From Bacteroidales bacterium (lineage in GTDB: Bacteria > Bacteroidota > Bacteroidia > Bacteroidales > WCHB1-69), in contig JAEEQE010000030.1 in the NCBI GenBank assembly GCA_016285145.1, positions 1 through 39,815 of the forward strand: a stretch of DNA of 39,815 bases. The letters run 5' to 3'. Made by a program: the position numbers and the translations under genes. Below are positions 2,193-34,160 of this stretch, one piece after another. Every line of letters begins with the position of its first letter. The stretch's first letter is position 1. The notes below the pieces were generated by a model. That model saw only the letters and a list, made by a program, of their open reading frames with translations, was not told the DNA's origin and did not search any database.

Positions 2193-2213
2193 TGGATTTT
2201 ACCTGATTGATGA

Positions 2214-2245: not shown

Positions 2246-2258
2246 CGGGATGAATCTG

Positions 2259-18479: not shown

Positions 18480-19274
18480 ATGGAACATGGTGTATGCACC
18501 CGGATGTCGGCGGCCCTGAGAGCGGAGGCCTCCCACCGTTCCGAAATGGTTTCCCAACTGCTTTTCGGCGAGACCTATTCGGTTGTGGAATGTGCCGACG
18601 AATGGCTCAAGATCAGCACGCACGATTGCGCCTACGAAGGCTGGCTGCCCCGCAAGCAACACACGCCGTTGACAGATGAGGAGCTGGAACTGCTCCAGAA
18701 CACGCCCCGTTATTTTGTGCGCGACACCTTCCTGTATGTACGCAATGCAGCCACCCACATCGCCTTTCCGGTATGCATCGGGAGTTCCTTCCCCATGCCG
18801 GACAACGGGCGGTTCACATTGGGCAGACAAAACTTCAGCGTGGAGCTGCCCGCTCCCGCCGAACCCCTCCATCACGAAGGCCTTACCCCACAACAAGACG
18901 ACCTGCTCGCTTTCGCTTTCCATTACCTCAACGCTCCCTACCTGTGGGGCGGACGCACACCTGCCGGCATCGACTGCTCCGGCTTCGTGCAGATTGTCTT
19001 CCGCAGCCTTGGCATCAACCTACCCCGCGACGCCTCCCAGCAGATATCGCACGGCGAGGTGGTGGACTTCGTGGAAGAGGCACGCATTGGCGACGTGGCC
19101 TTCTTCGCCAACGACGAAGGCTTGATCGTTCACACGGGCATCGTGTGCGGGCACCAGCAAATCCTCCACGCCTCTGGATTCGTCCAAATCAATACCTTAG
19201 ACGAAAACGGCATATTCAACCAATCGATGGGCCGCTATACCCATACCCTTCGAATTATCAAGAGAATACTCTGA
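18480..19274 (+). CDS. C40 (NlpC/P60) peptidase with N-terminal SH3-like domains, cytoplasmic YkfC-like (264 aa)
   Basis: Cysteine peptidase expected to cut gamma-D-glutamyl-diamino-acid bonds of murein peptides. The N-terminal half (about 1-130) looks like two bacterial SH3 domains (LLFGETYSVVECADEWLKISTHD, shortened: GETYSVVE..EWLKI). The NlpC/P60 domain fills about 135-264 with catalytic C166 in GIDCSGFVQIVFRSLG and histidines H218 (IVHTGIV) and H230 (ILHASGF). An in-frame TAA at 18438 limits the start, and no signal peptide is present. The protein therefore should be cytoplasmic, like the YkfC-type enzymes that recycle murein peptides. Confidence 0.87.
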   Translation: MEHGVCTRMSAALRAEASHRSEMVSQLLFGETYSVVECADEWLKISTHDCAYEGWLPRKQHTPLTDEELELLQNTPRYFVRDTFLYVRNAATHIAFPVCIGSSFPMPDNGRFTLGRQNFSVELPAPAEPLHHEGLTPQQDDLLAFAFHYLNAPYLWGGRTPAGIDCSGFVQIVFRSLGINLPRDASQQISHGEVVDFVEEARIGDVAFFANDEGLIVHTGIVCGHQQILHASGFVQINTLDENGIFNQSMGRYTHTLRIIKRIL

Positions 19275-19354
19275 TTTTCAAAACCTTATCGTTAGCAACA
19301 GACATTTCATCACATTATTCCACCCAAAAATTCCGAGATAGCAATATCTTTTGT

Positions 19355-19363
19355 TATCTTTGC
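19355..19363 (+). promoter_or_regulatory. Bacteroidota -7 box of the sulfonolipid/Hdr operon
   Basis: TATCTTTGC matches TAnnTTTGC, 32 nt before the VOC ATG at 19395. It lies in a 120-bp AT-rich gap after the C40 peptidase gene, the largest gap before the nine-gene unit. Confidence 0.65.
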
Positions 19364-19394
19364 AGCCTAAAATTAGTAAAAGCTTTTACCATCT

Positions 19395-20480
19395 ATGAAT
19401 GATTTTTTTATCTCCGGCATTCAACAAGTTGGTGTAGGAACCGTAGATATGCGGAAGTCGTGGGACTGGTACATCGACATGTTCGGCATTGACATCAAGA
19501 TTTTGGAAGACGACACGGTAGCGGAGCGGATGCTCCCTTACACTGGCAACCAGCCGCAGAAGCGGCATGCCTGCATTGCGGTCAACCTGCAGGGCGGCGG
19601 TGGTTTGGAGATCTGGCAGTACAGCGAGCGCACGCCCGTGCCAGTGGCCTTTGACATCGCCGTGGGCGATTTGGGCATTTTCGCCGCCAAGATCAAATGC
19701 CGCGACGTCAAAGCGTTCCACGCATACGCCTCTTCAAAATGGCCGGACTGCGGCGCCGTGGGTGCCCTACCCGACGGAACGCCCTGCCTATACCTCCGCG
19801 ACCTGTACGGCAACTATCTCCAGGTGGTGGAGCAGTCCGACATCTTCATTGAACAACACTGCCTCACCGGCGGCGTGGCGGGCGCGGTCATTGGGGTCAC
19901 CGACATGGATGCCTCCGTGCGCTTCTACCGCGAGGTGTTAGGCTACGAGCAAGTGATATACGATGAAACCAGCCGGTTCGACGACTGGCAGATGCTGCCC
20001 GGCTCCGGCGAACAATACCGTCGTGTGCTCCTCAAAGATCCTTCCAAGCCCAAGGGCCCGTTATCCGAGCTCATGCCGAAAGGCTGCATCGAACTGGTGC
20101 AGGCGCTGGACCGCACGCCGAGGAAAATCTACGAAGGGCGCTACTGGGGCGACCCCGGCTTCATCCAATTATGCTTCGACATCACCAACATGAAGCAGTT
20201 GGGCGAGTTTTGCGCCTCGAAAGGCCACCCCTTCACCGTGGACAGCTGTCCTGACAACGAGGTGTTTGACATGGGCGACGCTTCCGGACACTTCACCTAC
20301 ATTGAAGACCCGGACGGCACCCTGATCGAATTTGTGGAGACACACAAGATCCCAGTCATCAAAAAACTCGGTTGGTTCATCGACCTGACAAACCGCAAAC
20401 GCGAGAAGCCCCTGCCGAAATTCCTATTCAAGGCCATGGGTTTGGTATCCCGTGAAAAAAACAACAAATCAGACAATTAA
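19395..20480 (+). CDS. Double-VOC (HPPD-like) protein lacking metal-ligand histidines (361 aa)
   Basis: First gene of the nine-gene unit. The protein has four beta-alpha-beta-beta-beta modules, forming two VOC domains (about 5-150 and 160-335) like 4-hydroxyphenylpyruvate dioxygenase. In each module the position of the metal-binding histidine (seven residues before the conserved D) is changed: Q in GIQQVGVGTVD, A in FAAKIKCRD, G in GAVIGVTD, and Q in FIQLCFDITN. Three of the four glutamates at the other ligand position remain (GLEIWQ, CIELVQ, LIEFVE). The fold is therefore kept while the usual Fe(II) site appears lost. No reaction can be assigned. Its position 21 bp before the acyltransferase gene suggests a role in the same pathway, for example binding a lipid or amino-acid intermediate. 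Confidence 0.82.
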   Translation: MNDFFISGIQQVGVGTVDMRKSWDWYIDMFGIDIKILEDDTVAERMLPYTGNQPQKRHACIAVNLQGGGGLEIWQYSERTPVPVAFDIAVGDLGIFAAKIKCRDVKAFHAYASSKWPDCGAVGALPDGTPCLYLRDLYGNYLQVVEQSDIFIEQHCLTGGVAGAVIGVTDMDASVRFYREVLGYEQVIYDETSRFDDWQMLPGSGEQYRRVLLKDPSKPKGPLSELMPKGCIELVQALDRTPRKIYEGRYWGDPGFIQLCFDITNMKQLGEFCASKGHPFTVDSCPDNEVFDMGDASGHFTYIEDPDGTLIEFVETHKIPVIKKLGWFIDLTNRKREKPLPKFLFKAMGLVSREKNNKSDN

Positions 20481-20501
20481 TTACAAATACATTCATACAT
20501 T

Positions 20502-21761
20502 ATGCAAAAAGACATTTTCGAAAGAATCAAACAATCCACGGGCGGTCCTATCGGGCAATACCGTGATAAAGCGGAAGGCTATTTCACCTTCCCGAAATTA
20601 GAAGGCGAATTGGGTCCGCACATGCGTTTCAACGGCAAGGAGGTGCTTTGCTGGAGCCTCAACAACTACCTTGGTCTCGCCAACCACCCGGAGGTCCGCA
20701 AGACCGACGCGGAAGCCGCAGCCCGCTGGGGCATGGCCTACCCAATGGGCAGCCGTATGATGACCGGCCAGACGGCGCTGCATGAGAAACTGGAACGCGA
20801 ATTGGCTGATTTCGAGGGCAAAGAGGCCGCTTTCGAGTTCAATTTCGGCTACCAGGGCATTTTCTCCACCATCGATTCGTTGGTAAACCGCCACGATGTC
20901 ATCGTGTATGACGCAGAGGCACACGCCTGCCTGTTAGACGGTATTCGTCTGCATCTGGGCCACAAGTACAAATTCCGCCACAACAACATCGAGGACTGCG
21001 ACCGCGTGTTGGCCCATGCCACCGAGGTGGCCGACCAGAACGGCGGCGGCGTGCTGCTCATCACCGAAGGCGTCTTCGGCATGACTGGCGCCTTAGGCAT
21101 CCTGGACCAGATTGCGGCCCTGAAGAAGAAATACAAATTCCGCATCCTCATTGACGACGCGCACGGCTTCGGCGTGATGGGACCCAACGGCCGCGGCACC
21201 TCCGAGCATTTCGGCGTGATGGACGACATCGACATCTACATCGGTGCCTACGCCAAGTCGATGGCCACCATCGGCGGTTTCGTCGCCACGGAGAAAGCCA
21301 TCATCGACTATCTGAAATACAACATGCGTTCGCAGATGTACGCCAAATCGCTCCCGATGCCCATCGTGGAGGGCTGTCTGAAACGTCTGGAGATCATCCG
21401 CAGTCCCGAGGGCGACGCCCGCAGAGCGCACCTGTGGGAGGTGACCCGCCGTCTGCAAAAGGGCTTCCGCGACCTCGGTTACGAAATCGGGCCTGCCGAA
21501 GCGTGTGTCACGCCCGTGCACCTGAAATGCGGCGTGAACCAGGCCACGAACATCGCCGTCGATCTGCGCGAGAACTACAACATCTTCTGCTCCATCGTCA
21601 CTTACCCTGTCATCCCTCCCGGAATGCTGATCTTCCGCGTCATTCCCACCGCGGCGCACAGCATTGAGGATGTGGACCGCACCTTGGATGCCTTCCGCGA
21701 CATCAAGGAGCGCTTGGCCAAGGGCGATTACGACCACGAGATCCCCAACATGGCCCTTTAA
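20502..21761 (+). CDS. Alpha-oxoamine synthase, probable cysteate fatty-acyltransferase (sulfonolipid synthesis) (419 aa)
   Basis: PLP enzyme of the serine palmitoyltransferase/KBL family, which joins an amino acid to a fatty acyl thioester with loss of CO2. Family features: WSLNNYLGLANHPEV near residue 50, TGQTALHEKLERELADFEG, the cofactor-stacking DAEAHACLLDGIRL, LIDDAHGFGVMGPNGRG, and the Schiff-base lysine K252 in GAYAKSMATIGGF. Length is typical. The substrate cannot be read from the sequence, but a cysteate synthase in the same operon argues for cysteate over serine. The product would then be 3-ketocapnine, as described for the enzymes called CapB or SulA in other Bacteroidota. Serine palmitoyltransferase is the alternative. 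Confidence 0.88.
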   Translation: MQKDIFERIKQSTGGPIGQYRDKAEGYFTFPKLEGELGPHMRFNGKEVLCWSLNNYLGLANHPEVRKTDAEAAARWGMAYPMGSRMMTGQTALHEKLERELADFEGKEAAFEFNFGYQGIFSTIDSLVNRHDVIVYDAEAHACLLDGIRLHLGHKYKFRHNNIEDCDRVLAHATEVADQNGGGVLLITEGVFGMTGALGILDQIAALKKKYKFRILIDDAHGFGVMGPNGRGTSEHFGVMDDIDIYIGAYAKSMATIGGFVATEKAIIDYLKYNMRSQMYAKSLPMPIVEGCLKRLEIIRSPEGDARRAHLWEVTRRLQKGFRDLGYEIGPAEACVTPVHLKCGVNQATNIAVDLRENYNIFCSIVTYPVIPPGMLIFRVIPTAAHSIEDVDRTLDAFRDIKERLAKGDYDHEIPNMAL

Positions 21762-21783
21762 AGGCATTTCAAAAACAAAAAAC

Positions 21784-22581
21784 ATGACAAATCGAAACGG
21801 ACAAGTAATCTGGATCACAGGGGGTTCCTCCGGTATCGGGGAGGCGTGTGCATACCGCTATGCCGCGGAGCATGCCTCCCTTGTGCTGACCGCCCTCACG
21901 GCGGAGGAGTTAGAGCCGGTGGTGGCCAAATGCCGCGACCTTGGTGCGACAGTCTATGCCCTGCCCTACGACTTGCAGCATCCGGACGGTATCGAGACAT
22001 TAGCCGAAGAGGCCTGGAACGCATTCAACCGCATTGACATCTTATACTGCAACGCCGGCATCAGCCAGCGTACCACGGTGGAGGACACCTCTATGGAGAT
22101 GATACGCAGGCTCATGGAGATCAACTACTTCGCCCCGGTGGCTATCGCCAAGGCCGTACTGCCGAAGATGCTGGCGGCGGGGGGCGGCCACATCGCTGTG
22201 ACCACCTCCATCGCCGGAAAATTCGGCTTCCCGCTGCGCTGCGGCTATTGCTCCTCCAAACATGCCCTCTACGGGTTCTTTGAGACCCTTCAGGCTGAAT
22301 ACTCGGATCGGAACATCCACGTCACCATCGTATGTCCGGGACGCGTGCGGACCAACATCTCGCTCCGCGCCTTAGACAAGGGCGGCAAGCCCCACGGCAA
22401 GATGGATCCCGGCCAAGGGGGAGGGCTTTCCCCCGAACAGGCCGCCAAAATCATCCAGAAAGCCATCGACCGGAGCAAACGCGAGGTACTCGTAGGACGC
22501 AAGGAACTCATCATGGTCTATGTCAAGCGTTTCTTTCCGGGCCTTTGTGCCAAGATTGCCAAACGAATAAAACCGATGTAA
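21784..22581 (+). CDS. SDR oxidoreductase, probable 3-ketocapnine reductase (265 aa)
   Basis: Short-chain dehydrogenase/reductase that uses NAD(P)H. Rossmann motif TGGSSGIGEACAYRYA at about residues 11-26, NAG at about 85, catalytic serine in TTSIAGKFGF, and YxxxK in YCSSKHALYG. The tail is basic with hydrophobic residues (MVYVKRFFPGLCAKIAKRI), fitting membrane association. The frame is open farther upstream, but the ATG at 21784 is chosen because it starts directly before the Rossmann strand and lies 22 bp after the acyltransferase. Next to an alpha-oxoamine synthase, the expected job is reduction of the 3-keto group, as by 3-ketosphinganine or 3-ketocapnine reductase. The stop is immediately followed by the next ATG. 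Confidence 0.87.
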   Translation: MTNRNGQVIWITGGSSGIGEACAYRYAAEHASLVLTALTAEELEPVVAKCRDLGATVYALPYDLQHPDGIETLAEEAWNAFNRIDILYCNAGISQRTTVEDTSMEMIRRLMEINYFAPVAIAKAVLPKMLAAGGGHIAVTTSIAGKFGFPLRCGYCSSKHALYGFFETLQAEYSDRNIHVTIVCPGRVRTNISLRALDKGGKPHGKMDPGQGGGLSPEQAAKIIQKAIDRSKREVLVGRKELIMVYVKRFFPGLCAKIAKRIKPM

Positions 22582-23295
22582 ATGAACAACAACAACAAAC
22601 CCAAGAACCTGTTTGACGAGCTCTGCAAGGACTACCGCTTCAAGGAGGGGTTCCACACCTGCATCAACTGCGGAACCTGCACGGCAATATGCCCGGCGGC
22701 GGAGTTCTACAAATACGACCCACGGAAGATCGTCAGCATCGTGCAAACCCGCGACGACCAACAGATTGAGGAACTGCTGAAATCCGACACCATCTGGTAC
22801 TGCGGCGAGTGCATGAGCTGCGTCACCCGATGTCCGCGCAAGAACGGCCCCGGACTGGTCATCATCGCCCTCCGCGACCTCAGCGCCCGTCTGGGCTATT
22901 TCACCGAATCAGAAAAAGGCCGGCAGTTGCTGCCCCTGACGCACATCATGACCGGCAACATCCTCAACTACGGCTATTGCGTCCACCCCAAATCCTTCAA
23001 ATGGGAAGACCACAAGGAATCCGGCCCCGTCTGGAAATGGCATACCGAGCATTTAGAGCAAAGCCTCGCCCGTCAGGGTGCCAACTACATGGGCGACGGC
23101 CCCGGCATCCTGCGCAAGATCCCGCAGGAGTCTTTGGACGAGCTCAAGGCCATCTTCGATGTCACCGGCGGCACCGAGCGCATCGCCATAGTGGAGAAAT
23201 ACTCTAAACTCAAGGCAGAAGAGATGGGCATGGACATGGAAGAATACGAAAAACAAGCTTTCGAATACTGCTCTGACAAACATTTTAACCATTAA
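22582..23295 (+). CDS. HdrC-like 4Fe-4S protein (237 aa)
   Basis: Soluble electron-transfer subunit with two [4Fe-4S] motifs, CINCGTCTAICP near residue 31 and CGECMSCVTRCP near 74, in the spacing of heterodisulfide reductase subunit C. It is longer than typical HdrC because of a C-terminal region of about 120 residues with no recognised motif. Translation starts right at the end of the SDR gene and ends 6 bp before HdrB. It would pass electrons between HdrA-like flavin and HdrB-like CCG subunits. No methanogen substrate (CoM/CoB) is expected in this organism. Confidence 0.87.
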   Translation: MNNNNKPKNLFDELCKDYRFKEGFHTCINCGTCTAICPAAEFYKYDPRKIVSIVQTRDDQQIEELLKSDTIWYCGECMSCVTRCPRKNGPGLVIIALRDLSARLGYFTESEKGRQLLPLTHIMTGNILNYGYCVHPKSFKWEDHKESGPVWKWHTEHLEQSLARQGANYMGDGPGILRKIPQESLDELKAIFDVTGGTERIAIVEKYSKLKAEEMGMDMEEYEKQAFEYCSDKHFNH

Positions 23296-23301
23296 ACCTT
23301 T

Positions 23302-24372
23302 ATGATTACTCAAGGCAAACAAAAAATATGGAGCGACTACCAGAAGGAGATTCCCGACGACCACTGGTATTATGTCCGGAGCTGCATCCGCCAGAACTTC
23401 TTCCCCGCCAGTGAGAAGATGTTCACGGAAATTACACGCAACGTGTTAGGCAAGGACATCTACGAGACGCCCCACCATACCACCTGCGGGGGCATCGCCT
23501 ACCACTGCGACACTATCCCCCAAGAGACCGTCATGACCATCGTGGCGCGACAGTTCGCCCTGATGACGGAGGCCGGCTACGAGAACTACGTGCCCAGCTG
23601 CATCACCTCCTTCGGCAACTACTGCGAGATCTTAGAGACCTGGCATGAGTTCCCCGAATTGGAGGCCAAAATCCGCGAGAACCTCTGGAAAGCCTGCCGG
23701 CGCGAGTTCAACAAGCCCAAATACTTAGCTCACACCAGCGACCTCATCTACCATTGGCGCAACCAGATTGCCGCCAAGGCCAAATACCACCTCGTCAACA
23801 AGGAGACGGGCGAGCCGCTGAAGATTGTGGAGCACATCGGATGCCATTATGCGAAGATGTTCCCCAGCAAGGGCGTGGGCGGCGCGGAATACCCCTACGT
23901 ACTGGCCGGCATGATCGAAAGCTGGGGCGGACAGGTGGTGGACTACCCCGAGCGGCGGCACTGCTGCGGATACGGCTTCCGCCAGTACCACGTGAAGGCC
24001 AACCGGGGCTACAGCGTCTCCAACACCCATAAGAAATTCGAATCCATGGAGCCCTTCCACCCCGACGCCATCATCACCAACTGCCCCGGATGCCCCTATT
24101 TCCTCGACCGTTGGCAATACGTCATCGCCGAGCAGACGGGCAAGACCTACGGCCAAAACGGCTACGGCATCCCCGTATTCACTTACGAGGAGTTGGCAGG
24201 CCTCATCCTCGGCTACGATCCCTGGGACCTCGGCATGCAACTGCATCAGGTAGCCGTAGAACCCTTTCTGGACAAAATCGGCGTGGAATACGACCCCAAG
24301 GCCAAATACTTAGGTCTGAATAAAGAGGACATCCTTCGTCCGGAACTTCCCAAATCCATAAAATGTTGTTAA
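23302..24372 (+). CDS. HdrB-like CCG-domain protein with degenerate first CCG motif (356 aa)
   Basis: Catalytic-type subunit of the heterodisulfide reductase family, which binds a non-cubane iron-sulfur cluster through CCG domains (C..CC..CxxC). The second CCG is intact: C in HIGCHYAK near 181, CC in RRHCCGYGF near 219, and CPGC in TNCPGCPYF near 261. The first is reduced, with only single cysteines at RSCIRQN, TTCGGIAYHC and PSCITSF. Methanogen HdrB has both motifs complete and two clusters, so this protein probably carries one. It lies between HdrC (6 bp) and HdrA (4 bp). The substrate is unknown. Confidence 0.86.
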   Translation: MITQGKQKIWSDYQKEIPDDHWYYVRSCIRQNFFPASEKMFTEITRNVLGKDIYETPHHTTCGGIAYHCDTIPQETVMTIVARQFALMTEAGYENYVPSCITSFGNYCEILETWHEFPELEAKIRENLWKACRREFNKPKYLAHTSDLIYHWRNQIAAKAKYHLVNKETGEPLKIVEHIGCHYAKMFPSKGVGGAEYPYVLAGMIESWGGQVVDYPERRHCCGYGFRQYHVKANRGYSVSNTHKKFESMEPFHPDAIITNCPGCPYFLDRWQYVIAEQTGKTYGQNGYGIPVFTYEELAGLILGYDPWDLGMQLHQVAVEPFLDKIGVEYDPKAKYLGLNKEDILRPELPKSIKCC

Positions 24373-24376
24373 CGAT

Positions 24377-25390
24377 ATGAAAGAAAACATCGTAATAATC
24401 GGTGGCGGCATAGCGGGCATGGAGGCGGCCAAACAGCTGCTCATCCTCGGCTACACCCCCATCATCATCGAACAGGAGGACCACCTCGGCGGCCATGTGG
24501 CCCAATGGCACAAGCTGTTCCCCGACATGACCTCATCCCACGAACTGATTGGCAACCTGTCGAAACAGATCAAGGATGCCAATGTCTTCTTGGAAACGAA
24601 AGTAAACTCCATCAACGCATTGGGAGACAGTTATAATGTGATTTTAAACAACGGGGTCAACATCGTGGCCAAGGCCATCCTCATTGCCGCCGGCTTCCAT
24701 CTCTTTGATGCCGCCAAGAAGGAGGAGTACGGCTACGGGGTTTATGACCGCGTCATCACCAATGCGGATTTGGAGGCCTGGTTCAACCACCGTGCCGACG
24801 AGCGCATCCCGGAAAAGCCAAAAGCGGTGGGCTTCGTGCACTGCGTAGGTTCCCGCGACCTCAAGGCGGGCAACAGCCAATGCTCCAAGGTATGCTGCAC
24901 CACGGCCATCAAGCAGGCTATTGAAATCAAGGAGGTATTCCCCGAAACGGAAGTCTATTGTTTTTACATGGACCTGCGTCTTTTCGGCAAGAAATACGAG
25001 GATTTCTACATCAACGCGCAGCGTGATTTCGGCGTGCATTTCATCCGTGGCCGCGTGTCGGAGGTGGGCGAGACCATCGACAACCGCGTGCAGGTGAAGG
25101 CCGAGGACACGCTTACGGGCAAGCCCCTCAAGGTCACGCTGGACCTGCTCGTGCTCATGTCGGGCATGGTGTGCAACCCGCGCACGAACGAGCTGGCCGA
25201 GATGATCGGTCTCAACATCGACGACGACGGCTTCCTCAAGAGCAAGGACAACGTCTATACCATCATGGAATCCAACCGGCCGGGCATCTTCTACGCCGGC
25301 GCGTGCACGGGCACCAAGACCGTGCCGGAGACCGTGGCCGAGGCCCGCGCCGCCGTGCTCAGTATTCACCATTATCTGACACAGGCATGA
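24377..25390 (+). CDS. HdrA-like FAD protein, short form (337 aa)
   Basis: Flavin subunit of an Hdr-like complex. FAD-binding GGGIAGMEAAKQL at about residue 8, the HdrA signature VHCVGSRD with CSKVCC near 155-172, and a C-terminal dinucleotide segment (GIFYAGACTGTKTVPETVAEARAA). It lacks the N-terminal iron-sulfur region and C-terminal ferredoxin domains found in full-length methanogen HdrA (about 650 aa) and is close in size to the HdrA of sHdr systems and QmoA. Its stop overlaps the next start (ATGA at 25387-25390), indicating translational coupling. Confidence 0.87.
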   Translation: MKENIVIIGGGIAGMEAAKQLLILGYTPIIIEQEDHLGGHVAQWHKLFPDMTSSHELIGNLSKQIKDANVFLETKVNSINALGDSYNVILNNGVNIVAKAILIAAGFHLFDAAKKEEYGYGVYDRVITNADLEAWFNHRADERIPEKPKAVGFVHCVGSRDLKAGNSQCSKVCCTTAIKQAIEIKEVFPETEVYCFYMDLRLFGKKYEDFYINAQRDFGVHFIRGRVSEVGETIDNRVQVKAEDTLTGKPLKVTLDLLVLMSGMVCNPRTNELAEMIGLNIDDDGFLKSKDNVYTIMESNRPGIFYAGACTGTKTVPETVAEARAAVLSIHHYLTQA

Positions 25391-25707
25391 TGGATTTCGG
25401 TTTCACCCTCAGCAAAAGCTCCACCATCAACCTTGACACGGTGGACACCACCCTCTACAAGAAGCTCTGCGACATGGAGCCGGACGCCCGCATCTGCATG
25501 AGCTGCGGTTCCTGCAGCGCGAGCTGCACCGCCGCCTCTTTCAGCGGCATGAGCCTCCGCAAGGTCATCCTCGCCCTCCAGCGCGACCAGGACGTGCGCC
25601 CCATGTTAGCCAACTGCATGCTCTGCGGAAAATGCACCATGGTCTGCCCCCGCGCCATCAACACCCGTCACCTCATTTTGACCCTTTACAGAATTTATGA
25701 TCGATAG
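25387..25707 (+). CDS. Small HdrC-like protein with two 4Fe-4S motifs (106 aa)
   Basis: Compact ferredoxin-type protein with CMSCGSCSASC near residue 38 and CMLCGKCTMVCP near 79, the HdrC arrangement without extra domains. The frame is open upstream inside hdrA, but the real start is the ATG at 25387 (or the adjacent ATG at 25390), which overlaps the hdrA stop. Its end overlaps the next gene by 11 bp. Overlaps at both ends suggest equal production with HdrA and the membrane subunit. It probably carries electrons between these two. Confidence 0.85.
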   Translation: MMDFGFTLSKSSTINLDTVDTTLYKKLCDMEPDARICMSCGSCSASCTAASFSGMSLRKVILALQRDQDVRPMLANCMLCGKCTMVCPRAINTRHLILTLYRIYDR

Positions 25708-27526
25708 AATACCCTCCGGCTTTCACCCGTTCGTGCTGCCATTCCTTATCGGCATGATCTTCGTGCTATCCTACTGCGTTTTCGGGATAGTGCGGATTCT
25801 TTGGCAGCTTCCCAAGCAGGATGTGCGGAAATTCCTGCTGTCGCTCATCAATCCCAAGATGATTGTGAAGAATGTTTGGGAAATCTTCCGCGACTGTCTC
25901 ATCCACGTCAAACTCTGGAAACGCAACAAGTTGTTAGGCTACATGCACTCCAGCATCGCCTTCGGATGGTTTATGATTATCCTGCTTGGCCACATCGAAG
26001 TATTCCTCTTCGTGCCCAACCGCATCCACATGTTCTACTACCCCATCTTCTTCAATTACTTCGTGGCGGAAGGGCCGGATATGACCATACAAGGTTCTCT
26101 GTTGATGTTCCTGATGGACTTTTTCCTGCTGATAATCCTCAGCGGCATCGTGTTAGCCATGATCAAGCGGGTACAATCCCGCTTCTTCGGCATGAGGCGC
26201 ACGGCACGGCCCTCCCTGCTGAACCAGATCGGCCTCTATGCCCTTTGGGCCATCTTCCCGCTGCGACTGCTGGCCGAGAGCTTCACCGCCCACATCAGCG
26301 GCGGCTCCTTCCTGACCATCCCCGCCAACTGGATCTTCCGCCAGTTCCTCGGCAACGACCTCAACATGCTCCCCACCTGGTGGGCCTACTCCATCGCCCT
26401 CTGCGTCTTCATGTGCGTGCTGCCCTTCACGCGCTACATGCACATCCCGGCGGAGATGATGCTCATACCCATGCGCAACGCCGGCATCAAGATCCGCGAC
26501 TCGCGCAAGGGCTTCGCCAAGCTGCAGGTCTATAGCTGTCCCAACTGCGGCGTATGCATCGATGCCTGCCCGATGAGCGTCAACCGCGGAAACCTCAAAG
26601 ACTGCACCGTCTATCTCACCCGCCAGATGCGCCGCGGCAACGAGAAACGCATCGAAGAAATCTCCGACAAATGCCTTCTCTGTGGCAAATGCCACACCGT
26701 ATGCCAAGTGCAGGTGGAAGGTCCTCAACTGCGCATCATGGAACGCTCGCGCCGCCATTACAACCTCTCCCCCGACTACTCGAACATCGACACACAGCCC
26801 ATGACCGAGATCGCCAGCCATGGCAAGGTACTCTATTTCAGCGGATGCATGAGCCAGCTCACCCCTGCCATCGGACAGAGCGTGGAATCCATCCTCAAGA
26901 AAGCGGGCGTGGACTATGTGTGGATGGACCGCGACGGCGGCCTCTGCTGCGGACGGCCGCTGCTGACCGCCGGACGTGCTGAAGCGGCCAAAGAGTTAGT
27001 ACACAAGAACGAGGAAATCATCTTAGGCAGCGGTGCCGACACCCTGTTGGTGAGCTGCCCCATCTGCTACAAGATGTTCACGGAAGAATACCACCTTCCG
27101 GGCATCCGCGTGGTGCATTACAGTCACTATTTCAGTGAGTTGGTGCAACAAGACAAAATCCGCCTGGAGAAGAGCGACCTGTGCTATGTGTTCCACGATC
27201 CTTGTGAGTTGGGACGCGGATGCGGCATCTACGACGAGCCGCGAAAGCTCATCGGCAAGTCGGCCAGCATTGCGGAAGCAGAGAAGAACCGTGAGGAGAG
27301 CATTTGCTGCGGCGGGTCGTTAGGCTCGCTCACATTGAGCTTTGCCCAGCGCGAGGAGATGACACGCGCCGCATTGGAGAACCTATACACCAGCCGCGCC
27401 GACGCCATCGCCACCGCCTGCCCGCTCTGCCTCGCCACCTTCGCCCGCTACTCTGACCGGCCCGTGCGCGACCTGGCGGAAATCATCGACGCCCAATCCT
27501 CATCCACCCAGAAAGGAAATCAATAA
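25697..27526 (+). CDS. Membrane HdrE-HdrD-like fusion: b-type membrane domain, two 4Fe-4S motifs, two CCG domains (609 aa)
   Basis: Membrane-bound subunit that should exchange electrons with the quinone pool. The N-terminal half has about five TM segments (near residues 8-34, 83-105, 130-155, 178-198, 226-246) with histidines that may bind haem (YMHSSIAF, LLGHIEV, TAHISGG, YMHIPAEM), as in HdrE/NarI-like proteins. Then come [4Fe-4S] motifs CPNCGVCIDACP (near 281) and CLLCGKCHTVC (near 326). Two full CCG domains follow: SGCM/LCCGRP/CPIC (382-455) and HDPC/ICCGGS/CPLC (500-578). Related architectures are HdrDE, DsrMK and TmcC-type complexes. The start overlaps the previous gene by 11 bp. Confidence 0.87.
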   Translation: MIDRIPSGFHPFVLPFLIGMIFVLSYCVFGIVRILWQLPKQDVRKFLLSLINPKMIVKNVWEIFRDCLIHVKLWKRNKLLGYMHSSIAFGWFMIILLGHIEVFLFVPNRIHMFYYPIFFNYFVAEGPDMTIQGSLLMFLMDFFLLIILSGIVLAMIKRVQSRFFGMRRTARPSLLNQIGLYALWAIFPLRLLAESFTAHISGGSFLTIPANWIFRQFLGNDLNMLPTWWAYSIALCVFMCVLPFTRYMHIPAEMMLIPMRNAGIKIRDSRKGFAKLQVYSCPNCGVCIDACPMSVNRGNLKDCTVYLTRQMRRGNEKRIEEISDKCLLCGKCHTVCQVQVEGPQLRIMERSRRHYNLSPDYSNIDTQPMTEIASHGKVLYFSGCMSQLTPAIGQSVESILKKAGVDYVWMDRDGGLCCGRPLLTAGRAEAAKELVHKNEEIILGSGADTLLVSCPICYKMFTEEYHLPGIRVVHYSHYFSELVQQDKIRLEKSDLCYVFHDPCELGRGCGIYDEPRKLIGKSASIAEAEKNREESICCGGSLGSLTLSFAQREEMTRAALENLYTSRADAIATACPLCLATFARYSDRPVRDLAEIIDAQSSSTQKGNQ

Positions 27527-27562
27527 CCAAACCATAATTCACCCTTAAAAACCATAACGATT

Positions 27563-28846
27563 ATGAGATTCAAACCCACGCAATACCTTCTCGTCAACGT
27601 TGAGAACGGCCATACCTTTGAAGACAAAGGCTGGACCCTGAGCGACCCCGACGGCAAGAAACCGTCGTTGATCCGCGCCATGTATAAGAACATCCTCTTC
27701 ACCCCGCGCGAGGACCTGAAAGGCATCTACCGCTATGCGGACTGGATGCCCATCAACCGCACACTGAAGAAGTCCTGCGCCCCCGTCACCTACAAGTCCA
27801 AGGGACTGGCCAAATTCCTGGGTTTGGACAACCTCTACATCACCTTCTCCGGCTGGTGTCCGAAGATCGGGGCCAAGATGCGCACCTGCTCCTTCAAGGA
27901 GACGGAAGCCTTTTCGGTGCTGGCCCGCATCCCCCGCAAAGAGAACCGTATTCTGGTGGTACAGTCCGCCGGCAACACGGCCCGCGCCTTCGCACAGGTA
28001 TGTTCCGACAACCGCATCCCTATCGTGCTGTGCGTACCTTATGACAACCTCCACGACCTCTGGTTCAGCAAGAAGTTAGACAAGTGCGTCAAGTTGGTGG
28101 CCGTGCCCCACGGGTACGACTACTACGATGCCATCGCCGTTGGCGAGAAGTTGGCGGAAGATCACCGCTTTTTCTTAGAAGGCGGGGCCAAGAACGTTGC
28201 GCGACGCGACGGCATGGGCACCACCGTGCTGAGCTGTGTGGAACAAATGCAGCGCATCCCTGACGCCTATTTCCAGGCCGTAGGTTCCGGCACCGGTGCC
28301 ATCGCCGCCTGGGAAAACGCCTGCCGTTTGGAGGCCGACGGACGCTTCGGCAACAACCACATGCGCGTGTATGTGGCTCAGAACAAACCCTTCACCCTCA
28401 TGTACGACGCCTGGAAAGCCCAATCGAGGGCCCTGCCAGAGCTCTCCGCCGAAGAGGGACGCCGTCAGGCCGAGGTCATCCTCGCCAAGGTACTCTCCAA
28501 CCGCAAGCCGCCCTACAGCCTTGCCGGCGGCCTGTTCGACACGCTGACGGAAAGCCATGGCGATATGTTCTTAGCCGACAATAACGAAATCATGTACTGG
28601 ATGATGCAGTATCGGAACTTAGAGGGTTACGACCTGTTGCCCGCCGCCTGCGTGGCCGTGAGCGCGCTGGCGCAAGCCGTCAAAGAGGAAGTGGTGAAGA
28701 AGGAGGAATATATTATGCTCAACTGCACCGGCGGCGGCTCTCTCACCGCCATGAGCAAGGGCTTCGTATTCAAAGAGCCCGACCTCATCCTCTCGCCGGA
28801 CCTGCCGTCCGAGACCATCATCGAGAAAGTGAGTGCCCTGTTCTAA
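27563..28846 (+). CDS. Cysteate synthase (PLP, threonine-synthase fold) (427 aa)
   Basis: PLP enzyme that forms L-cysteate from O-phospho-L-serine and sulfite. The sequence resembles the methanogen cysteate synthase along most of its length. Shared blocks include TYKSKGLAKFLGLDNLYITF, TCSFKETEA with PLP lysine K112, SAGNTARAFAQV, GGAKNVARRDGMGT, YFQAVGSGTGAIAAWE, NRKPPYSLAGGLFD and LNCTGGGS. An ordinary threonine synthase would have a different N-terminus and lacks these blocks. It starts 36 bp after the membrane Hdr gene and ends just before a strong terminator, so it is the last gene of the unit. Cysteate is the head-group precursor of capnine; the enzyme has been called CapA in sulfonolipid work. 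Confidence 0.92.
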   Translation: MRFKPTQYLLVNVENGHTFEDKGWTLSDPDGKKPSLIRAMYKNILFTPREDLKGIYRYADWMPINRTLKKSCAPVTYKSKGLAKFLGLDNLYITFSGWCPKIGAKMRTCSFKETEAFSVLARIPRKENRILVVQSAGNTARAFAQVCSDNRIPIVLCVPYDNLHDLWFSKKLDKCVKLVAVPHGYDYYDAIAVGEKLAEDHRFFLEGGAKNVARRDGMGTTVLSCVEQMQRIPDAYFQAVGSGTGAIAAWENACRLEADGRFGNNHMRVYVAQNKPFTLMYDAWKAQSRALPELSAEEGRRQAEVILAKVLSNRKPPYSLAGGLFDTLTESHGDMFLADNNEIMYWMMQYRNLEGYDLLPAACVAVSALAQAVKEEVVKKEEYIMLNCTGGGSLTAMSKGFVFKEPDLILSPDLPSETIIEKVSALF

Positions 28847-28855
28847 ACTATTTTT

Positions 28856-28890
28856 AAGGCAACGATAATCGTTGCCTTTTTCTTTTTCGC
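28856..28890 (+). terminator. Strong intrinsic terminator of the sulfonolipid/Hdr operon
   Basis: A perfect 10-bp stem (AAGGCAACGA / TCGTTGCCTT) with loop TAA, followed by TTTTCTTTTT. It lies 10 nt after the cysteate synthase stop. Confidence 0.95.
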
Positions 28891-28940
28891 GAAATGCACC
28901 ATTAGAACATCCCCCAAAATCCACTCTAACATAAAATCGT

Positions 28941-28949
28941 TATTTTTGC
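28941..28949 (+). promoter_or_regulatory. Bacteroidota -7 box of the DUF4153 gene
   Basis: TATTTTTGC, 19 nt before the ATG at 28968, directly after the operon terminator. Confidence 0.6.
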
Positions 28950-28967
28950 AAAAAAAACGAGAATCAA

Positions 28968-30728
28968 ATGAATTTGGAAAAGAGATCGTTAAAAGAGAAA
29001 ATCCAACGGGGACTGACGGCTGTGTGGGATGCCGTGAAAGCGCATCCCGTGGAGATTGTCATCCTGTTATATGTCTGCGTGGTCGGGTGTTTTGGAATTT
29101 CCGATCCGGATATATTTGATGTAAAAAACGAACCGGCGCCGTGGTGGTTCCGGCCGATGTCACTGGCACCGTTTATGGTGGTGGCGGCTTACTCGCTGCA
29201 GCCGTTGCGCAAACGCGGCATCGGGTGGCTGCTGCTCTACCTGCTGCCGTTAGTGGGGATGGTGGCCGGGTTCGCCATGCCGTTCCTCCTCGACTGGGTG
29301 GAGGAAACCGCCTATTGGATTGCCGTGCTTGCGGCGCTTCCGCTGTGGTTGTGCGTGCGGCATCGGCTCACCGACAACGAACCGTTTGTGCAGCGCAACG
29401 TGCAGATGGCCTGGTCGGCGGTGCGGGCGTTGCTCGTCGCGGGAATCCTCTATCTGCTGTATGCCGCCATCGCTTACACCATCCAAACGCTCTTCGACAT
29501 CCCTCACAAAGTCTGGGACGGCTGGTACGAACAAGCGGCGTTGCTGCTATTTTGCGGATTGGCTCCCGTGCTCTTTTTCGCCATGGAGGACCGTCCCGAG
29601 CCCATCGAGATCCGCCGTTTCTGGGCCGTATTGCTGAACTGGGTGCTCACGCCCGCACTGATGATTTACACCGTGGTGCTCTATGTGTATGCCGCCAAAA
29701 TCCTCTTTACATGGGACCTGCCGAAGGGCGGGGTCGCCATCATGGTGACGGTTTTCTTTGTGATCTTCTTCGCAGCCAAGATCTTGCAGATGCTCACGGA
29801 ACCGCAACCACTCAAGTGGTTCTATGACCATTTCAGCCTGTTCGTCTTGCCGCTTCTGGCACTCTTCTGGACAGCGGTCGCCCGTCGTTTGACAGACTAT
29901 GGTCTGACCGAGTCACGCTACTACTTGCTATTGGGCGGGGTGTTGATGACCGTGTGTGTGCTGGTGTTCCTCTTTCGCAACCATCGTGGCTATTTCGCCT
30001 TGGCGGCGGGAACGTTGGCCGTCGTATTGCTGACGGTGCTGGTGCCGCCGCTCCGTGGCGAGCGGGTTGCGCAACGGGCCCAAATCCAGCGTGTACGCAC
30101 GATTGCCAAGAAACTCAACCGCCTGAACGACGACGGCACATTGCGACTTCCCCAACCCGACAAAGCCGATACATTGCAAGTGGTTGAGCACCGCAAACTT
30201 TATCAGTCGCTCAACTATTTGTCGAACAGAAACGACACGGCGTTCTTTAAACGTGAGTTCGGCATCGCCCGGAAATCGGACTATTTGGCATCATTGTCGG
30301 AAAGAACCTCCGGTTATGCCTCTGCTTGGTCGGAAGATAATGCCCGAGAACAGTTAGAGGATGAAGTTTTGATTGTAGAGGAAATGCAGCCAAGTGTCTA
30401 TTTATCGCGCAAGAGTAACGGGCCCGTGGATGTGAGCGGCTACCGCCAGATGTACAGGACGACAAACCATATCAGGGTGGATCAATCGTTTTCCATCGGG
30501 AATGGCAAGAAAATTTCGGCAAATCAGATTTTCCGGGAGCAGTTGCAAAGGCTTGGCTGTCCGGACATGTTGCCTTCGAGGACTTGGTTAGAGGATCATG
30601 AAGAAGAACTGTTGACCTATCGCACCGACAGTTTGCTGGTCTGTTTCAACCAGTTGCGCTTGGAGCGTCAGACCTCCGACGTTGAATGGAGGGTGGAGTA
30701 TTACGAATGGGTGGTGCTGGTGAAGTAA
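28968..30728 (+). CDS. DUF4153-family polytopic membrane protein (586 aa)
   Basis: Integral membrane protein of unknown function. Roughly the first 365 residues contain about ten to eleven TM segments (for example VEIVILLYVCVVGCFGI near 28, GWLLLYLLPLVGMVAGFAM near 86, ALLVAGILYLLYAAIAYTI near 152, GVLMTVCVLVFLF near 326). This fits the DUF4153 pattern with the short conserved VLFFAMEDRP-like turn near 205. The last 215 residues are soluble and rich in charged residues, with no recognised domain. It has its own promoter box and stands between the Hdr operon terminator and a convergent MarR gene, so no functional link to either is implied. Confidence 0.8.
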   Translation: MNLEKRSLKEKIQRGLTAVWDAVKAHPVEIVILLYVCVVGCFGISDPDIFDVKNEPAPWWFRPMSLAPFMVVAAYSLQPLRKRGIGWLLLYLLPLVGMVAGFAMPFLLDWVEETAYWIAVLAALPLWLCVRHRLTDNEPFVQRNVQMAWSAVRALLVAGILYLLYAAIAYTIQTLFDIPHKVWDGWYEQAALLLFCGLAPVLFFAMEDRPEPIEIRRFWAVLLNWVLTPALMIYTVVLYVYAAKILFTWDLPKGGVAIMVTVFFVIFFAAKILQMLTEPQPLKWFYDHFSLFVLPLLALFWTAVARRLTDYGLTESRYYLLLGGVLMTVCVLVFLFRNHRGYFALAAGTLAVVLLTVLVPPLRGERVAQRAQIQRVRTIAKKLNRLNDDGTLRLPQPDKADTLQVVEHRKLYQSLNYLSNRNDTAFFKREFGIARKSDYLASLSERTSGYASAWSEDNAREQLEDEVLIVEEMQPSVYLSRKSNGPVDVSGYRQMYRTTNHIRVDQSFSIGNGKKISANQIFREQLQRLGCPDMLPSRTWLEDHEEELLTYRTDSLLVCFNQLRLERQTSDVEWRVEYYEWVVLVK

Positions 30729-30822: not shown

Positions 30823-31260
30823 CTACGGGAGCGGATGCGACATATTCTCCGACAGCTTATCCAAGGTATTCAAGAAGTTGCGCAGTTCCTCCTCACTGAT
30901 GCCGGCGAGGACCTTGTCTAGCATGGAGATGCCCACCTGTTTGGCCTCCTGTTTCATCTGTTCGCCCTTAGGGGTGAGCACGATGATATTGGAACGTTTG
31001 TCATTAGGGTTTTTGCGCCGGGCAATAAAGGATTTCTTTTCCAGTGCATCCACCAGTTTGGTGACGGAGTTTTTGTCCTTCTGCATATTGTTGGCCAGGC
31101 TCTGCTGCGACATCGGGCCCTGGTTCCAGAGGACGTCCACCAGCAGGAACTGTTCGGGCGTGAGGCCCAGGTCATACTGTTTGAGCATGGCGGAGGTGTA
31201 CTGTTTCAACCTACAGGCTGCCAGATTGATATACACGGCGATTTCTTTGGACAATAGCAT
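30823..31260 (-). CDS. MarR-family transcriptional regulator (145 aa)
   Basis: Dimeric winged-helix DNA-binding protein. The helix-turn-helix and wing are visible: LTPEQFLLVDVLWNQGPMSQ near 33, LANNMQKDKNSVTKLVDALE near 55, FIARRKNPNDKRSNIIVLTPKGE near 78, followed by the C-terminal dimerisation helix. The size is typical for MarR. It is convergent with DUF4153 and faces away from the restriction locus, so its target is not evident. Many MarR proteins control their own promoter, and the box about 23 nt upstream would be the place to look. Confidence 0.9.
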   Translation of the reverse strand: MLLSKEIAVYINLAACRLKQYTSAMLKQYDLGLTPEQFLLVDVLWNQGPMSQQSLANNMQKDKNSVTKLVDALEKKSFIARRKNPNDKRSNIIVLTPKGEQMKQEAKQVGISMLDKVLAGISEEELRNFLNTLDKLSENMSHPLP

Positions 31261-31521: not shown

Positions 31522-31600
31522 AATATGCCATTTCCAGCAGCTTATGTGGGGAAAATTGCTATTTTTTCAGGTTTAATTGTCAAATAACACATTTTGCAAA

Positions 31601-33109
31601 ATGGCGAAGAAAAACAACACGGCTGATATTGGCTTTGAAGACAAAATATGGAAGGCGGCTGACCTGCTTCGTGGATCGATAGATGCTGCAGAATATAAGA
31701 ATGTGGTGCTCGGTCTCATTTTCCTGAAGTATATCTCCGATTGCTTCGATGTGAAACACCAACAATTGGTGGATGAAGGCGACGGATTTGAAGAAGACAA
31801 TGACGAATACATCTCGGAGAATATCTTTTACGTACCCGCGGATGCTCGCTGGAGTGTGATTGCCGAAGCCGCCCACACACCGGAAATTGGCAAGGTCATC
31901 GATAACGCGATGATGGAAATCGAGAAGGAGAACGACCGTCTGAAAGGCATCCTGCCCAAGAATTTCGCCCGTCCCGAGCTTGACAAGCGCCGATTGGGCG
32001 ATGTGGTGGATCTTTTCACCAACACGCTCGAATTAGGTAAGCGCGAGGAGAACAAAGACCTGCTGGGCAGAACTTACGAATACTGCCTCTCCAAATTCGC
32101 TTCCTTGGAAGGCAAAAACGCTGGCGAATTCTACACACCGAGCTGCATTGTGCGCACTATTGTGGCTGTTCTGCAACCGTTTAAGGGCCGTTGCTACGAC
32201 CCCGCGATGGGTAGCGGCGGTATGTTCGTGCAGAGTGCCGACTTTGTGAAACACCATCAGGGCGATATCAAAAACCTCAGTATATTCGGACAGGAGATCA
32301 ATGCCAACACTCGCAAGATGGCGATGATGAACTTGGCTATCCGCGGCATCGAAGCCAACTTGGGCGACCGGAATGCGGACACCTTCTTCGACGATCAACA
32401 CCCGACCTTGAAGGCCGATTTTGTGATGGCTAACCCGCCTTTCAACATGAGCGACTGGGGTGCCGACAAGCTGCAGGAGGATGTGCGATGGAAGTATGGT
32501 ATCCCGCCTGCCGGCAATGCTAACTTCGCTTGGATGGAGCACATGATCAGCCACCTGTCGCCTACGGGACGCATCGGATTGGTGTTGGCGAACGGCTCGT
32601 TGAGCAGCCAGACCGGCGGCGAGGGCGAAATCCGCAAGAACATCCTGCAGGCCGATTTGGTGGAAGGTATCGTGGCCTTGCCCAGCCAGCTGTTCTACAG
32701 TACCGGCATCCCCGTGTGTCTGTGGTTCCTCAACCGACGGAAAACCCAGCCGGGAAAGGTGGTCTTTGTTGACGCGCGGAACATGGGCACGATGGTGACC
32801 CGCAAGTTGCGCGAACTGACGGAGGATGACATAGAGCGTATTGCCAAGACTTTTGAGGATTACCGTAATGGCACATTAGAAGACGAAAAGGGCTACTGTG
32901 CCGTGAAGACCCTTGACGATATTGCCGCACAAGACCACATCCTCACCCCTGGCCGCTACGTGGGTATTGCCGAGCAGGAAGACGACGGCGAACCTTTTGA
33001 AGAAAAGATGGAACGACTGACCACGGAGTTAAGCGGGCTCTTTGAGGAAAGCCACCGGTTGGAAGAAGAAATCAGAAAGCAATTGGGGAGTATTGGTTTT
33101 AAGATATAA
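31601..33109 (+). CDS. hsdM: Type I restriction-modification methyltransferase subunit HsdM (502 aa)
   Basis: N6-adenine methyltransferase subunit of a Type I system; two HsdM join one HsdS, and two HsdR are added for cleavage. An N-terminal HsdM_N helical domain (FEDKIWKAADLLRGSIDAAE) is followed by AdoMet motif I DPAMGSGGMFV near residue 200 and catalytic motif IV NPPF at about 278. The frame is open to a TTG at 31577, but the ATG at 31601 gives the usual N-terminus (MAKKNNTADIGFEDKIW). Base composition is close to that of the housekeeping region, unlike the second hsdS and the OLD gene downstream. The length is normal and no disruption is seen. Confidence 0.94.
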   Translation: MAKKNNTADIGFEDKIWKAADLLRGSIDAAEYKNVVLGLIFLKYISDCFDVKHQQLVDEGDGFEEDNDEYISENIFYVPADARWSVIAEAAHTPEIGKVIDNAMMEIEKENDRLKGILPKNFARPELDKRRLGDVVDLFTNTLELGKREENKDLLGRTYEYCLSKFASLEGKNAGEFYTPSCIVRTIVAVLQPFKGRCYDPAMGSGGMFVQSADFVKHHQGDIKNLSIFGQEINANTRKMAMMNLAIRGIEANLGDRNADTFFDDQHPTLKADFVMANPPFNMSDWGADKLQEDVRWKYGIPPAGNANFAWMEHMISHLSPTGRIGLVLANGSLSSQTGGEGEIRKNILQADLVEGIVALPSQLFYSTGIPVCLWFLNRRKTQPGKVVFVDARNMGTMVTRKLRELTEDDIERIAKTFEDYRNGTLEDEKGYCAVKTLDDIAAQDHILTPGRYVGIAEQEDDGEPFEEKMERLTTELSGLFEESHRLEEEIRKQLGSIGFKI

Positions 33110-33120
33110 TTCGTATAAAC

Positions 33121-33157: not shown

Positions 33158-33159
33158 AG

Positions 33160-34152: not shown

Positions 34153-34160
34153 TTGGACAA

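Follow-up and report, generated by a model that had tools for sequence, protein, structure and literature searches.

The operon at positions 19395-28846 of the contig analyzed here probably encodes the biosynthesis of a sulfonolipid (capnine), one of the sulfur-containing membrane lipids that resemble sphingolipids, together with its own anaerobic sulfite generator. The contig (39,815 bases, hereafter the window, meaning the whole stretch of DNA that was analyzed) belongs to a 2.73-Mb, 95% complete genome of a gut-type Bacteroidales bacterium, and the named genomes nearest to it in HdrB1 sequence, among the best 80 of 578 matching stretches that were confirmed, are Bacteroidales-type assemblies, many of them from rumen, faeces, or gut. 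On this ground the genome's own order, hereafter the order, was taken to be Bacteroidales. Nine same-strand open reading frames (ORFs) are arranged in the order VOC-SulA-SDR-HdrC1-HdrB1-HdrA-HdrC2-HdrED-CysS, in which VOC is a vicinal-oxygen-chelate protein, SulA an acyltransferase, SDR a short-chain dehydrogenase/reductase, CysS a cysteate synthase, and the remaining five are heterodisulfide reductase (Hdr)-like proteins. The Hdr genes very probably function in the synthesis of cysteate and sulfonolipid; their most likely role is to generate sulfite for CysS, with the electrons passing out to the membrane pool.

Organization of the operon

Consecutive genes were spaced by 21, 22, 0, 6, 4, -4, -11, and 36 bp in operon order, with two overlaps, and the nine-gene same-strand operon with gaps of no more than 36 bp that had been described in a first-pass annotation of this DNA was borne out by the ORF coordinates. 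A promoter-like TAnnTTTGC -7 box (TATCTTTGC, 19355..19363, + strand) was located by motif scan, and it stands alone as that annotation had stated, the next match downstream on either strand lying at 28941, ahead of the following gene. The whole window contains 14 such matches on both strands versus 5.3 expected, and no TTTG at the usual spacing upstream of the 19355-19363 box was seen by eye. The single strong terminator that had been claimed was recovered by a hairpin scan as a Rho-independent site with a 10-bp stem and a T tail at 28856..28878 (+ strand), after the CysS stop. The same scan returned 10 terminator-like sites in 19200-29100 versus 10.8 expected; since this count matches expectation, only the strongest hairpin, directly after the last stop, was used as evidence of termination.

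Predicted genes for sulfonolipid biosynthesis

As judged from their sequences, the lipid enzymes of the operon are of the sulfonolipid type. The second gene (20502..21761, + strand) encodes a putative cysteate acyl-acyl carrier protein (acyl-ACP) transferase of the SulA/CapB type, a 419-amino-acid member of the alpha-oxoamine synthases (AOS), which scored 568 bits against PDB entry 7u7h and 545 bits against 28eh (named cysteate-C-fatty acyltransferase), versus 219 bits against serine palmitoyltransferase (8guh/3a2b); on the serine palmitoyltransferase model NF047600 it scored 283, under the cut-off of 640. In the alignment with 7u7h the protein keeps the stretch YAKSLPMP, including the diagnostic lysine that corresponds to Lys281 of PMC9304779, and this stretch agrees with the K281A primer printed in the available part of that paper, according to which Lys281 marks SulA and serine palmitoyltransferase has alanine at the same place. 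The record of 7u7h reads 7-keto-8-aminopelargonate synthetase-like enzyme; from the agreement of its sequence with the K281A primer, it is presumably the SulA of Alistipes finegoldii. Serine was rejected as the probable substrate of the window SulA on the basis of Lys281 and the bit scores.

The third gene (21784..22581, + strand) encodes an SDR reductase of 265 amino acids, a candidate 3-ketocapnine reductase, which passed the broad SDR model NF004825 with 233.6 bits (cut-off, 215). The position of the gene suggests 3-ketocapnine as its substrate, and we know of no sequence signature exclusive to 3-ketocapnine reductase (KCR/CapC). The product of the last gene, the predicted cysteate synthase CysS (27563..28846, + strand), scored 420.6 bits on TIGR03844 (cut-off, 324.9) and matched PDB entry 9k3c, 'Cysteate synthase', at 470 bits. 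Enzymes of this family convert O-phosphoserine and sulfite to cysteate. Cysteate synthase as such is not new in this setting, because the archaeal-type enzyme is used by Alistipes and Odoribacter according to the available part of PMC10191378. With Lys281 of SulA, the TIGR03844 score of CysS, and the family match of the SDR, all three core sulfonolipid steps appear to be present in the operon, as had been proposed.

The first gene (19395..20480, + strand) encodes a two-domain VOC (glyoxalase-fold) protein of 361 amino acids (Pfam Glyoxalase, 43.1 bits). Its AlphaFold model (pLDDT 85.5) retrieved only generic two-domain VOC proteins in the fold search, the best Foldseek matches being 1zsw (TMq 0.57) and 4huz (TMq 0.58). 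A VOC gene lies beside SulA without Hdr in four loci (L243, L247, L250, and L253), and membership of VOC in the Hdr module was rejected on these pairs. Because VOC also occurs in SulA clusters without Hdr, it was assigned to the lipid genes and not to Hdr.

The Hdr-like module

HdrC1 (22582..23295, + strand) is a dicluster 4Fe-4S protein of 237 amino acids that scored 64-77 bits on HdrC models, under their cut-offs, and the HdrB1-like protein (23302..24372, + strand; 356 amino acids) scored 120-126 bits on HdrB models, likewise under the cut-offs. The C-terminal CCG site of HdrB1 is complete (C181, C221, C222, C261, and C264), the N-terminal one is reduced to C28, C62, and C100, and these site cysteines are invariant across 26 sequences. 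HdrA (24377..25390, + strand) is a flavoprotein-like protein of 337 amino acids with the compact sHdrA/6TJR architecture; it scored 204 bits against 6tjr, and its residues 4-329 are co-linear with residues 3-335 of that chain, which we take to be Hyphomicrobium sHdrA (the chain record says flavoprotein only). Methanogen HdrA aligns from about residue 94-100 of the window HdrA onward, plus a weak N-terminal piece. HdrC2 (25387..25707, + strand) is a 4Fe-4S protein of 106 amino acids with Fer4_9/Fer4_8 matches and 34.9 bits on an HdrC model, under its cut-off.

The fifth Hdr gene (25697..27526, + strand), recognized by its motifs and by Foldseek, encodes HdrED, a protein of 609 amino acids in which a cytochrome b-like hydrophobic part is fused to an HdrD-like part. 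The HdrCBA-C-ED set of the first-pass annotation was thus found with all five genes, with the correction that 'HdrED' is a single fused gene whose N-terminal part is the membrane part and whose C-terminal part is HdrD. HdrED contains four strongly hydrophobic segments, two 4Fe-4S motifs, and two complete CCG sites, with CPIC and both CC pairs intact; H70, H84, H99, and H249, which lie in or near the hydrophobic part, and every cluster cysteine are invariant in 28 sequences. Its model (pLDDT 81.7) gave Mycobacterium smegmatis EtfD (9ojn) as the top Foldseek match at TMq 0.71. The fold and the invariant histidines point to heme b and menaquinone as the likely partners of HdrED.

Linkage of Hdr and cysteate synthase in relatives

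Relatives were compared in a named set consisting of the best 80 of the 578 confirmed HdrB1-matching stretches (83-98% identity), and loci that were short downstream (7/80) or upstream (6/80) were left out of the linkage counts. In 76 of the 80 loci the five Hdr genes were all present in the same orientation, and CysS came next in 70 of the 73 loci with room, so the gene set of the operon is not a chance assembly. Upstream of Hdr, the complete trio VOC-SulA-SDR was found in 23 of 74 loci, a part of the trio in 9, and none of it in 42. Because CysS follows in nearly all loci while those 42 have no VOC, SulA, or SDR upstream, Hdr plus CysS was regarded as the conserved core unit; in the clade inspected, this unit is flanked by apparently unrelated genes (RlmD or a Na/Ca antiporter upstream, and MscS downstream). 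Two loci labelled Alistipes sp. (L107 and L126) hold the nine-gene set, and a 90% complete genome (G371; L059/L066) has a VOC-SDR-Hdr-CysS operon. No SulA lies between VOC and SDR in L090, L092, and L100.

Viewed from the side of CysS, adjacent Hdr genes were found at 7 of the 57 loci inspected (the window, G306, G309, G321, G371, G405, and G617). By sample, these were 2 of 40 loci fetched from the 66 other CysS carriers of the order, 5 of 12 from carriers of the window's own family, and 0 of 5 from another family; in genus g152, SulA adjoins CysS and there is no Hdr. CysS over the cut-off occurs in 6 of 296 genomes of a phylum-wide sample, the window's genome included. The neighbourhood of CysS and Hdr, on which the earlier inference of a common process turned, is therefore near-universal when seen from this Hdr clade and exceptional when seen from CysS.

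Clusters with PALP2 and with PAPS/APS reductase

Divergent Hdr sets, whose HdrB is 56-75% identical to that of the window, are common in the order (regions for inspection were chosen for contig room, not randomly), and some of them are clustered with SulA-type AOS genes and PALP2 in several gene orders: AOS-PALP2-SDR-VOC-HdrC1-C2-ED-B1-A in L145, L223, and L235, AOS-PALP2-HdrC1-B1-A-C2-ED-SDR-VOC in L224, and AOS-PALP2-HdrC1-B1-A-C2-ED in L226, where SDR and VOC are not in the cluster. PALP2 is a pyridoxal phosphate enzyme; the three copies that were scanned scored 114-133 bits on TIGR03844, under the cut-off, and PALP2 may be a second cysteate synthase, or a cysteate synthase-like enzyme, of a further family. 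In a quick HdrB tree built from the window, 21 hand-chosen named loci, and those later loci whose HdrB match was long (74 rows in all), the Hdr sets of the PALP2 clusters fell into a 15-row clade separate from the 25-row CysS-linked clade, both clades being starred. Because the PALP2-type and CysS-linked HdrB proteins form distinct clades, at least two Hdr-lipid associations probably arose separately; the PALP2-type Hdr cluster itself may have arisen once and then been reshuffled. Together with the linkage to CysS, the Hdr-SulA-PALP2 clusters in a separate Hdr clade uphold the inference that the Hdr genes take part in the same process as the lipid genes.

These clusters also bear on a cofactor role, in which the cell would build a small coenzyme M-like sulfonated thiol from cysteate and Hdr would reduce the disulfide of that thiol, as in methanogens, which also use this cysteate synthase family. 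Cysteate feeds coenzyme M in Methanosarcina acetivorans, where TIGR03844 also matches, and Hdr acts on CoM-S-S-CoB. We consider such a role very unlikely, as a related Hdr set accompanies SulA and PALP2, and no sulfopyruvate decarboxylase gene is present among the nine operon genes, which include SulA (ComDE was not searched genome-wide).

Five loci (L243-L247), hand-picked for the closeness of SulA and PF01507 among the matches listed, carry SulA, PALP2, and phosphoadenylyl-sulfate reductase (PAPS/APS reductase, CysH) over the cut-off, with SDR in two, VOC in two, and SDR and/or VOC in three of the five; no Hdr gene was found in these stretches. CysH makes sulfite, so that in the CysH-SulA clusters a sulfite maker occupies the place of Hdr. 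In 15 other SulA-targeted regions, neither CysH nor Hdr was called in the vicinity of SulA; there was no SulA ORF in L251, L255, and L258, and the stretch of the last, which is one of the 15, misses the intended site.

Distribution of SulA, Hdr, and PF01507

The distribution was determined in an order sample of 247 genomes drawn evenly, some of them partly incomplete, using PF01507 (threshold, E 1e-30) as a proxy for sulfate assimilation. CysS was carried by 67 genomes, HdrB by 79, SulA by 174, and PF01507 by 178. SulA was present in 73/79 Hdr-positive versus 101/168 Hdr-negative genomes, and the association with Hdr is stronger for SulA than for CysS, PALP2 being the gene found beside SulA in loci. 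The tie was closest in the 69 PF01507-negative genomes, where Hdr occurred in 25 of 33 genomes with SulA versus 1 of 36 without (Fisher p 1e-10); in the 178 PF01507-positive genomes the corresponding counts were 48/141 and 5/37. Either Hdr or PF01507 was present in 166 of 174 SulA-positive versus 38 of 73 SulA-negative genomes. The result held for PF01507-negative genomes when one genome per family was used (118 genomes; Hdr in 14/18 with SulA versus 0/11 without, p 5e-5) and when the window's own family and the genomes with linked clusters were left out (15/23 versus 1/36, p 1.6e-7).

In a family sample of 104 genomes, 81 passed the acyltransferase search at E 1e-60 and 76 were counted as SulA carriers, G304, G335, G355, G356, and G391 being left out because they had 32-35% matches only; SulA was present in 65/73 Hdr-positive versus 11/31 Hdr-negative genomes. 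Of 52 CysS-positive genomes from the two samples, checked separately, 7 have linked Hdr, 23 have Hdr elsewhere, and 22 have no Hdr; PF01507 was found in 1, 12, and 19 of them, respectively. The window's own genome (G000) gave no PF01507 match at E 1e-10 or 1e-30, and an assimilatory origin of its sulfite was rejected on this result.

Two further explanations were weighed against these counts. The Hdr genes might form an energy module with no relation to the lipid genes, placed in the operon by chance, since dense bacterial operons can mix functions and 50 of the 57 inspected CysS loci are without Hdr; the 70/73 linkage, an association kept across differing gene orders, and the distribution statistics led us to reject this hitch-hiking as hardly credible. 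Alternatively, Hdr would oxidise sulfide or persulfide for protection or to feed menaquinone, and CysS and the lipid would mainly be a sink for sulfite. In favour of this, Hdr often occurs without such neighbours, and the block has close to it a MarR regulator with one cysteine, whose relative in L182 is weakly OhrR-like. Against it, genomes with neither PF01507 nor SulA are nearly without Hdr (1/36), unlike what a general sulfide defence would give, and detoxification or energy gain as the main function is regarded as unlikely.

Proposed function

The preferred reading is that of a sulfite generator serving CysS, a mechanism that goes beyond the first-pass annotation. It is favoured by the linkage of Hdr to CysS, the Hdr-SulA-PALP2 clusters of another Hdr clade, the presence of CysH in some equivalent clusters, the distribution counts, and the resemblance of HdrA and the gene order to sHdr and of HdrED to EtfD. 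HdrC1, HdrB1, HdrA, and HdrC2 would assemble in the cytoplasm into an sHdr-like complex in which sulfane sulfur, present as a persulfide on a carrier, is oxidised to sulfite at non-cubane Fe-S sites, and the electrons would run through the HdrD part and then the b-type membrane part of HdrED to the menaquinone pool. CysS would join the sulfite to O-phosphoserine to yield cysteate, SulA would combine cysteate with acyl-ACP to give 3-ketocapnine, and SDR would reduce this to capnine, with VOC acting at some step on the lipid side. In Bacteroidales whose sulfate reduction goes through PAPS/APS reductase, that enzyme could supply the sulfite instead. On balance, it appears likely that a lipoate-independent, membrane-coupled Hdr serves biosynthesis here by converting reduced sulfur to sulfite with the electrons going to menaquinone; in evolutionary terms it would be an alternative to PAPS/APS reductase.

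The module might instead run in reverse, with menaquinol electrons passing via HdrED to the other Hdr subunits for reduction of a disulfide, a persulfide, or another lipid intermediate, and no sulfite being made. Canonical Hdr enzymes are reductases, and the two complete CCG sites of HdrED resemble those of catalytic HdrB as described in the available part of PMC13083937. Such a reductive module is nevertheless rather unlikely: the known first steps require cysteate, acyl-ACP, and a ketoreductase (available parts of PMC9304779 and PMC11211663), the Hdr block accompanies CysS even without adjacent SulA, SDR, or VOC, and neither CysH in equivalent clusters nor the strongest Hdr-SulA tie in PF01507-negative genomes is predicted by it.

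Several observations weigh against sulfite generation for CysS. The direction of electron flow is not derivable from sequence. No sulfur carrier for Hdr was found: there is no lipoate-binding protein (LbpA) among the nine operon genes, and the genome's sole GcvH-like gene, which adjoins an ORF read as ribosome recycling factor-like, does not fit that part, so LbpA was not retained as a candidate. TusA was likewise unsupported, being present in 4/25 genomes with SulA and Hdr and without PF01507 versus 13/33 genomes with none of the three (33 of 35 such genomes, 245 of the 247 order genomes being covered). CysS is absent after Hdr in L087, L088, and L103, 50 of the 57 inspected CysS loci (some on short contigs) have no adjacent Hdr, and no SulA was found at E 1e-60 in G371, the genome with the VOC-SDR-Hdr-CysS operon. 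No CysS, PALP2, or SulA lies in the stretches of 36 of 40 further Hdr loci of the order and of 9 of 10 divergent Hdr loci fetched from the window's own family. The congeners G310 and G323 have SulA, PALP2, and SDR grouped with Hdr elsewhere, and G561, the genome of the CysH locus L247, has an Hdr set elsewhere. Complementarity is not strict, in that Hdr and PF01507 occur together in 48 SulA-positive genomes and are both missing from 8 others; G306 has the linked operon plus PF01507, and 6 Hdr-positive genomes of the order sample are without SulA. CysS alone is weakly tied to Hdr (28/79 Hdr-positive versus 39/168 Hdr-negative genomes, p 0.05), PF01507 is a proxy, and the distribution statistics are not tree-corrected.

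If sulfite generation for CysS is correct, it would explain where anaerobes lacking sulfate assimilation get their sulfite, and it would tie their sulfonolipid output to the reduced sulfur of the gut (thiols, sulfide, and persulfides), not to sulfate. The capacity to make sulfonolipids could be recognized by the Hdr block as a marker module, and Hdr-type sulfur oxidation would have been put to biosynthetic use, which would be, to our knowledge, the first assimilatory use of sHdr-type chemistry.

Neighbouring genes

A MarR-family regulator (Pfam MarR, 65.7 bits), whose only cysteine is Cys16, is encoded 2 kb downstream of the operon (30823..31260, - strand) and was tentatively assigned as its regulator. 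In 10 of the 80 named loci, CysS is immediately followed by a convergent MarR gene, to whose product the window protein is 61-71% identical. With the MarR of L182 it shares 39% identity; the L182 gene lies just upstream of HdrC1 on the same strand, and its product scored 49 bits on the OhrR model, under the cut-off. That the MarR gene specifies a sulfur- or redox-sensing repressor of the operon is only a guess made from its sequence and position.

A type I restriction-modification system occupies 31577-36611 with the order hsdM, a tyrosine recombinase gene, and two hsdS genes. A 38-bp direct repeat without mismatches (34161-34198 and 35308-35345) is common to the starts of the two hsdS genes, and there are longer internal repeats as well; this suggests recombination-driven switching of specificity. 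Beside it, an AAA ATPase with an OLD-like TOPRIM domain is encoded at 36633-38465 in a low-GC stretch (36-37% versus 55-58% in the operon), and the region of the type I system and the ATPase looks like a defence island. At the other end of the window, 1335-7082 encodes a protein of 1607 amino acids that combines four Fib_succ_major domains with matches of the fibronectin type, adjoining another Fib_succ_major protein.

Comparison with known systems

No paper combining sulfonolipid with heterodisulfide reductase was found in a search of open-licence papers, which did not extend to the primary capABC paper (Biochemistry 2022), and none joining Hdr, or PAPS reductase or sulfite supply, with capnine, sulfobacin, or cysteate synthase was found among the matches listed. 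The available part of a cockroach gut genome paper that mentions Hdr (PMC10266427) has nothing relevant to a sulfonolipid-Hdr link.

In the sHdr-LbpA systems of Hyphomicrobium and other sulfur oxidisers, the gene order is hdrC1B1A-hyp-hdrC2B2, the proposed function of the complex is the oxidation of protein-bound sulfur to sulfite, and sHdr is 'inevitably associated' with lipoate-binding protein, according to the available part of PMC6067878. The operon resembles them in its order C1-B1-A-C2 followed by the B2 position, in the compact HdrA (about 350 amino acids in type) co-linear with 6TJR, and in sulfite as the presumed product. It differs in that the hyp gene is absent, the membrane-fused HdrED takes the place of B2, the context is lipid biosynthesis instead of thiosulfate oxidation, no lipoate-binding protein is encoded in the operon, and no lipoate-maturation gene is present among its nine genes (the genome was not searched for one). 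Because LbpA is missing, the operon Hdr was not filed as sHdr. The plasmids searched for true sHdr clusters gave only an Acidithiobacillus CCG protein (28.6%), a piece of Ilyobacter HdrA (35%), weak HdrED matches, and one cyanobacterial set: a plasmid of Picosynechococcus sp. PCC 7003 (L264, 10068-15808) carries HdrC1-B1-A-C2-B2 plus an FAD oxidoreductase, its C1, B1, and A being 41-47% identical to those of the window.

HdrED is like EtfD/HdrDE in having a membrane part, two 4Fe-4S motifs, and two CCG domains, in line with its Foldseek match. Mycobacterial EtfD is an electron wire to menaquinone with clusters capped by Thr and His substitutions and non-catalytic, according to the available part of PMC13083937, whereas both CCG sites of HdrED keep all cysteines; its partner genes are Hdr-like, and the operon has no gene for electron-transfer flavoprotein. 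Methanogen HdrABC shares the HdrB, HdrC, and HdrA homology, but the operon HdrA is without the additional domains of the solved chains of 643-671 amino acids, the N-terminal CCG site of HdrB1 is degenerate, and no hydrogenase or formate dehydrogenase gene is present in the operon.

On the lipid side, the operon shares with the SulA/CapABC pathway of Alistipes finegoldii, Capnocytophaga, Chryseobacterium, and Ornithobacterium a predicted cysteate synthase, an acyl-ACP transferase with Lys281, and an SDR-type ketoreductase. According to the available part of PMC11211663, the reductases tested in A. finegoldii lie scattered over the genome without linkage to cfat and Cys, whereas here a single operon unites the core genes with VOC and the five Hdr genes. 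The CysH-containing clusters L243-L247 share SulA with the operon and, in three of the five, SDR and/or VOC; they differ from it in having PAPS/APS reductase as the presumed source of sulfite where the operon has Hdr.

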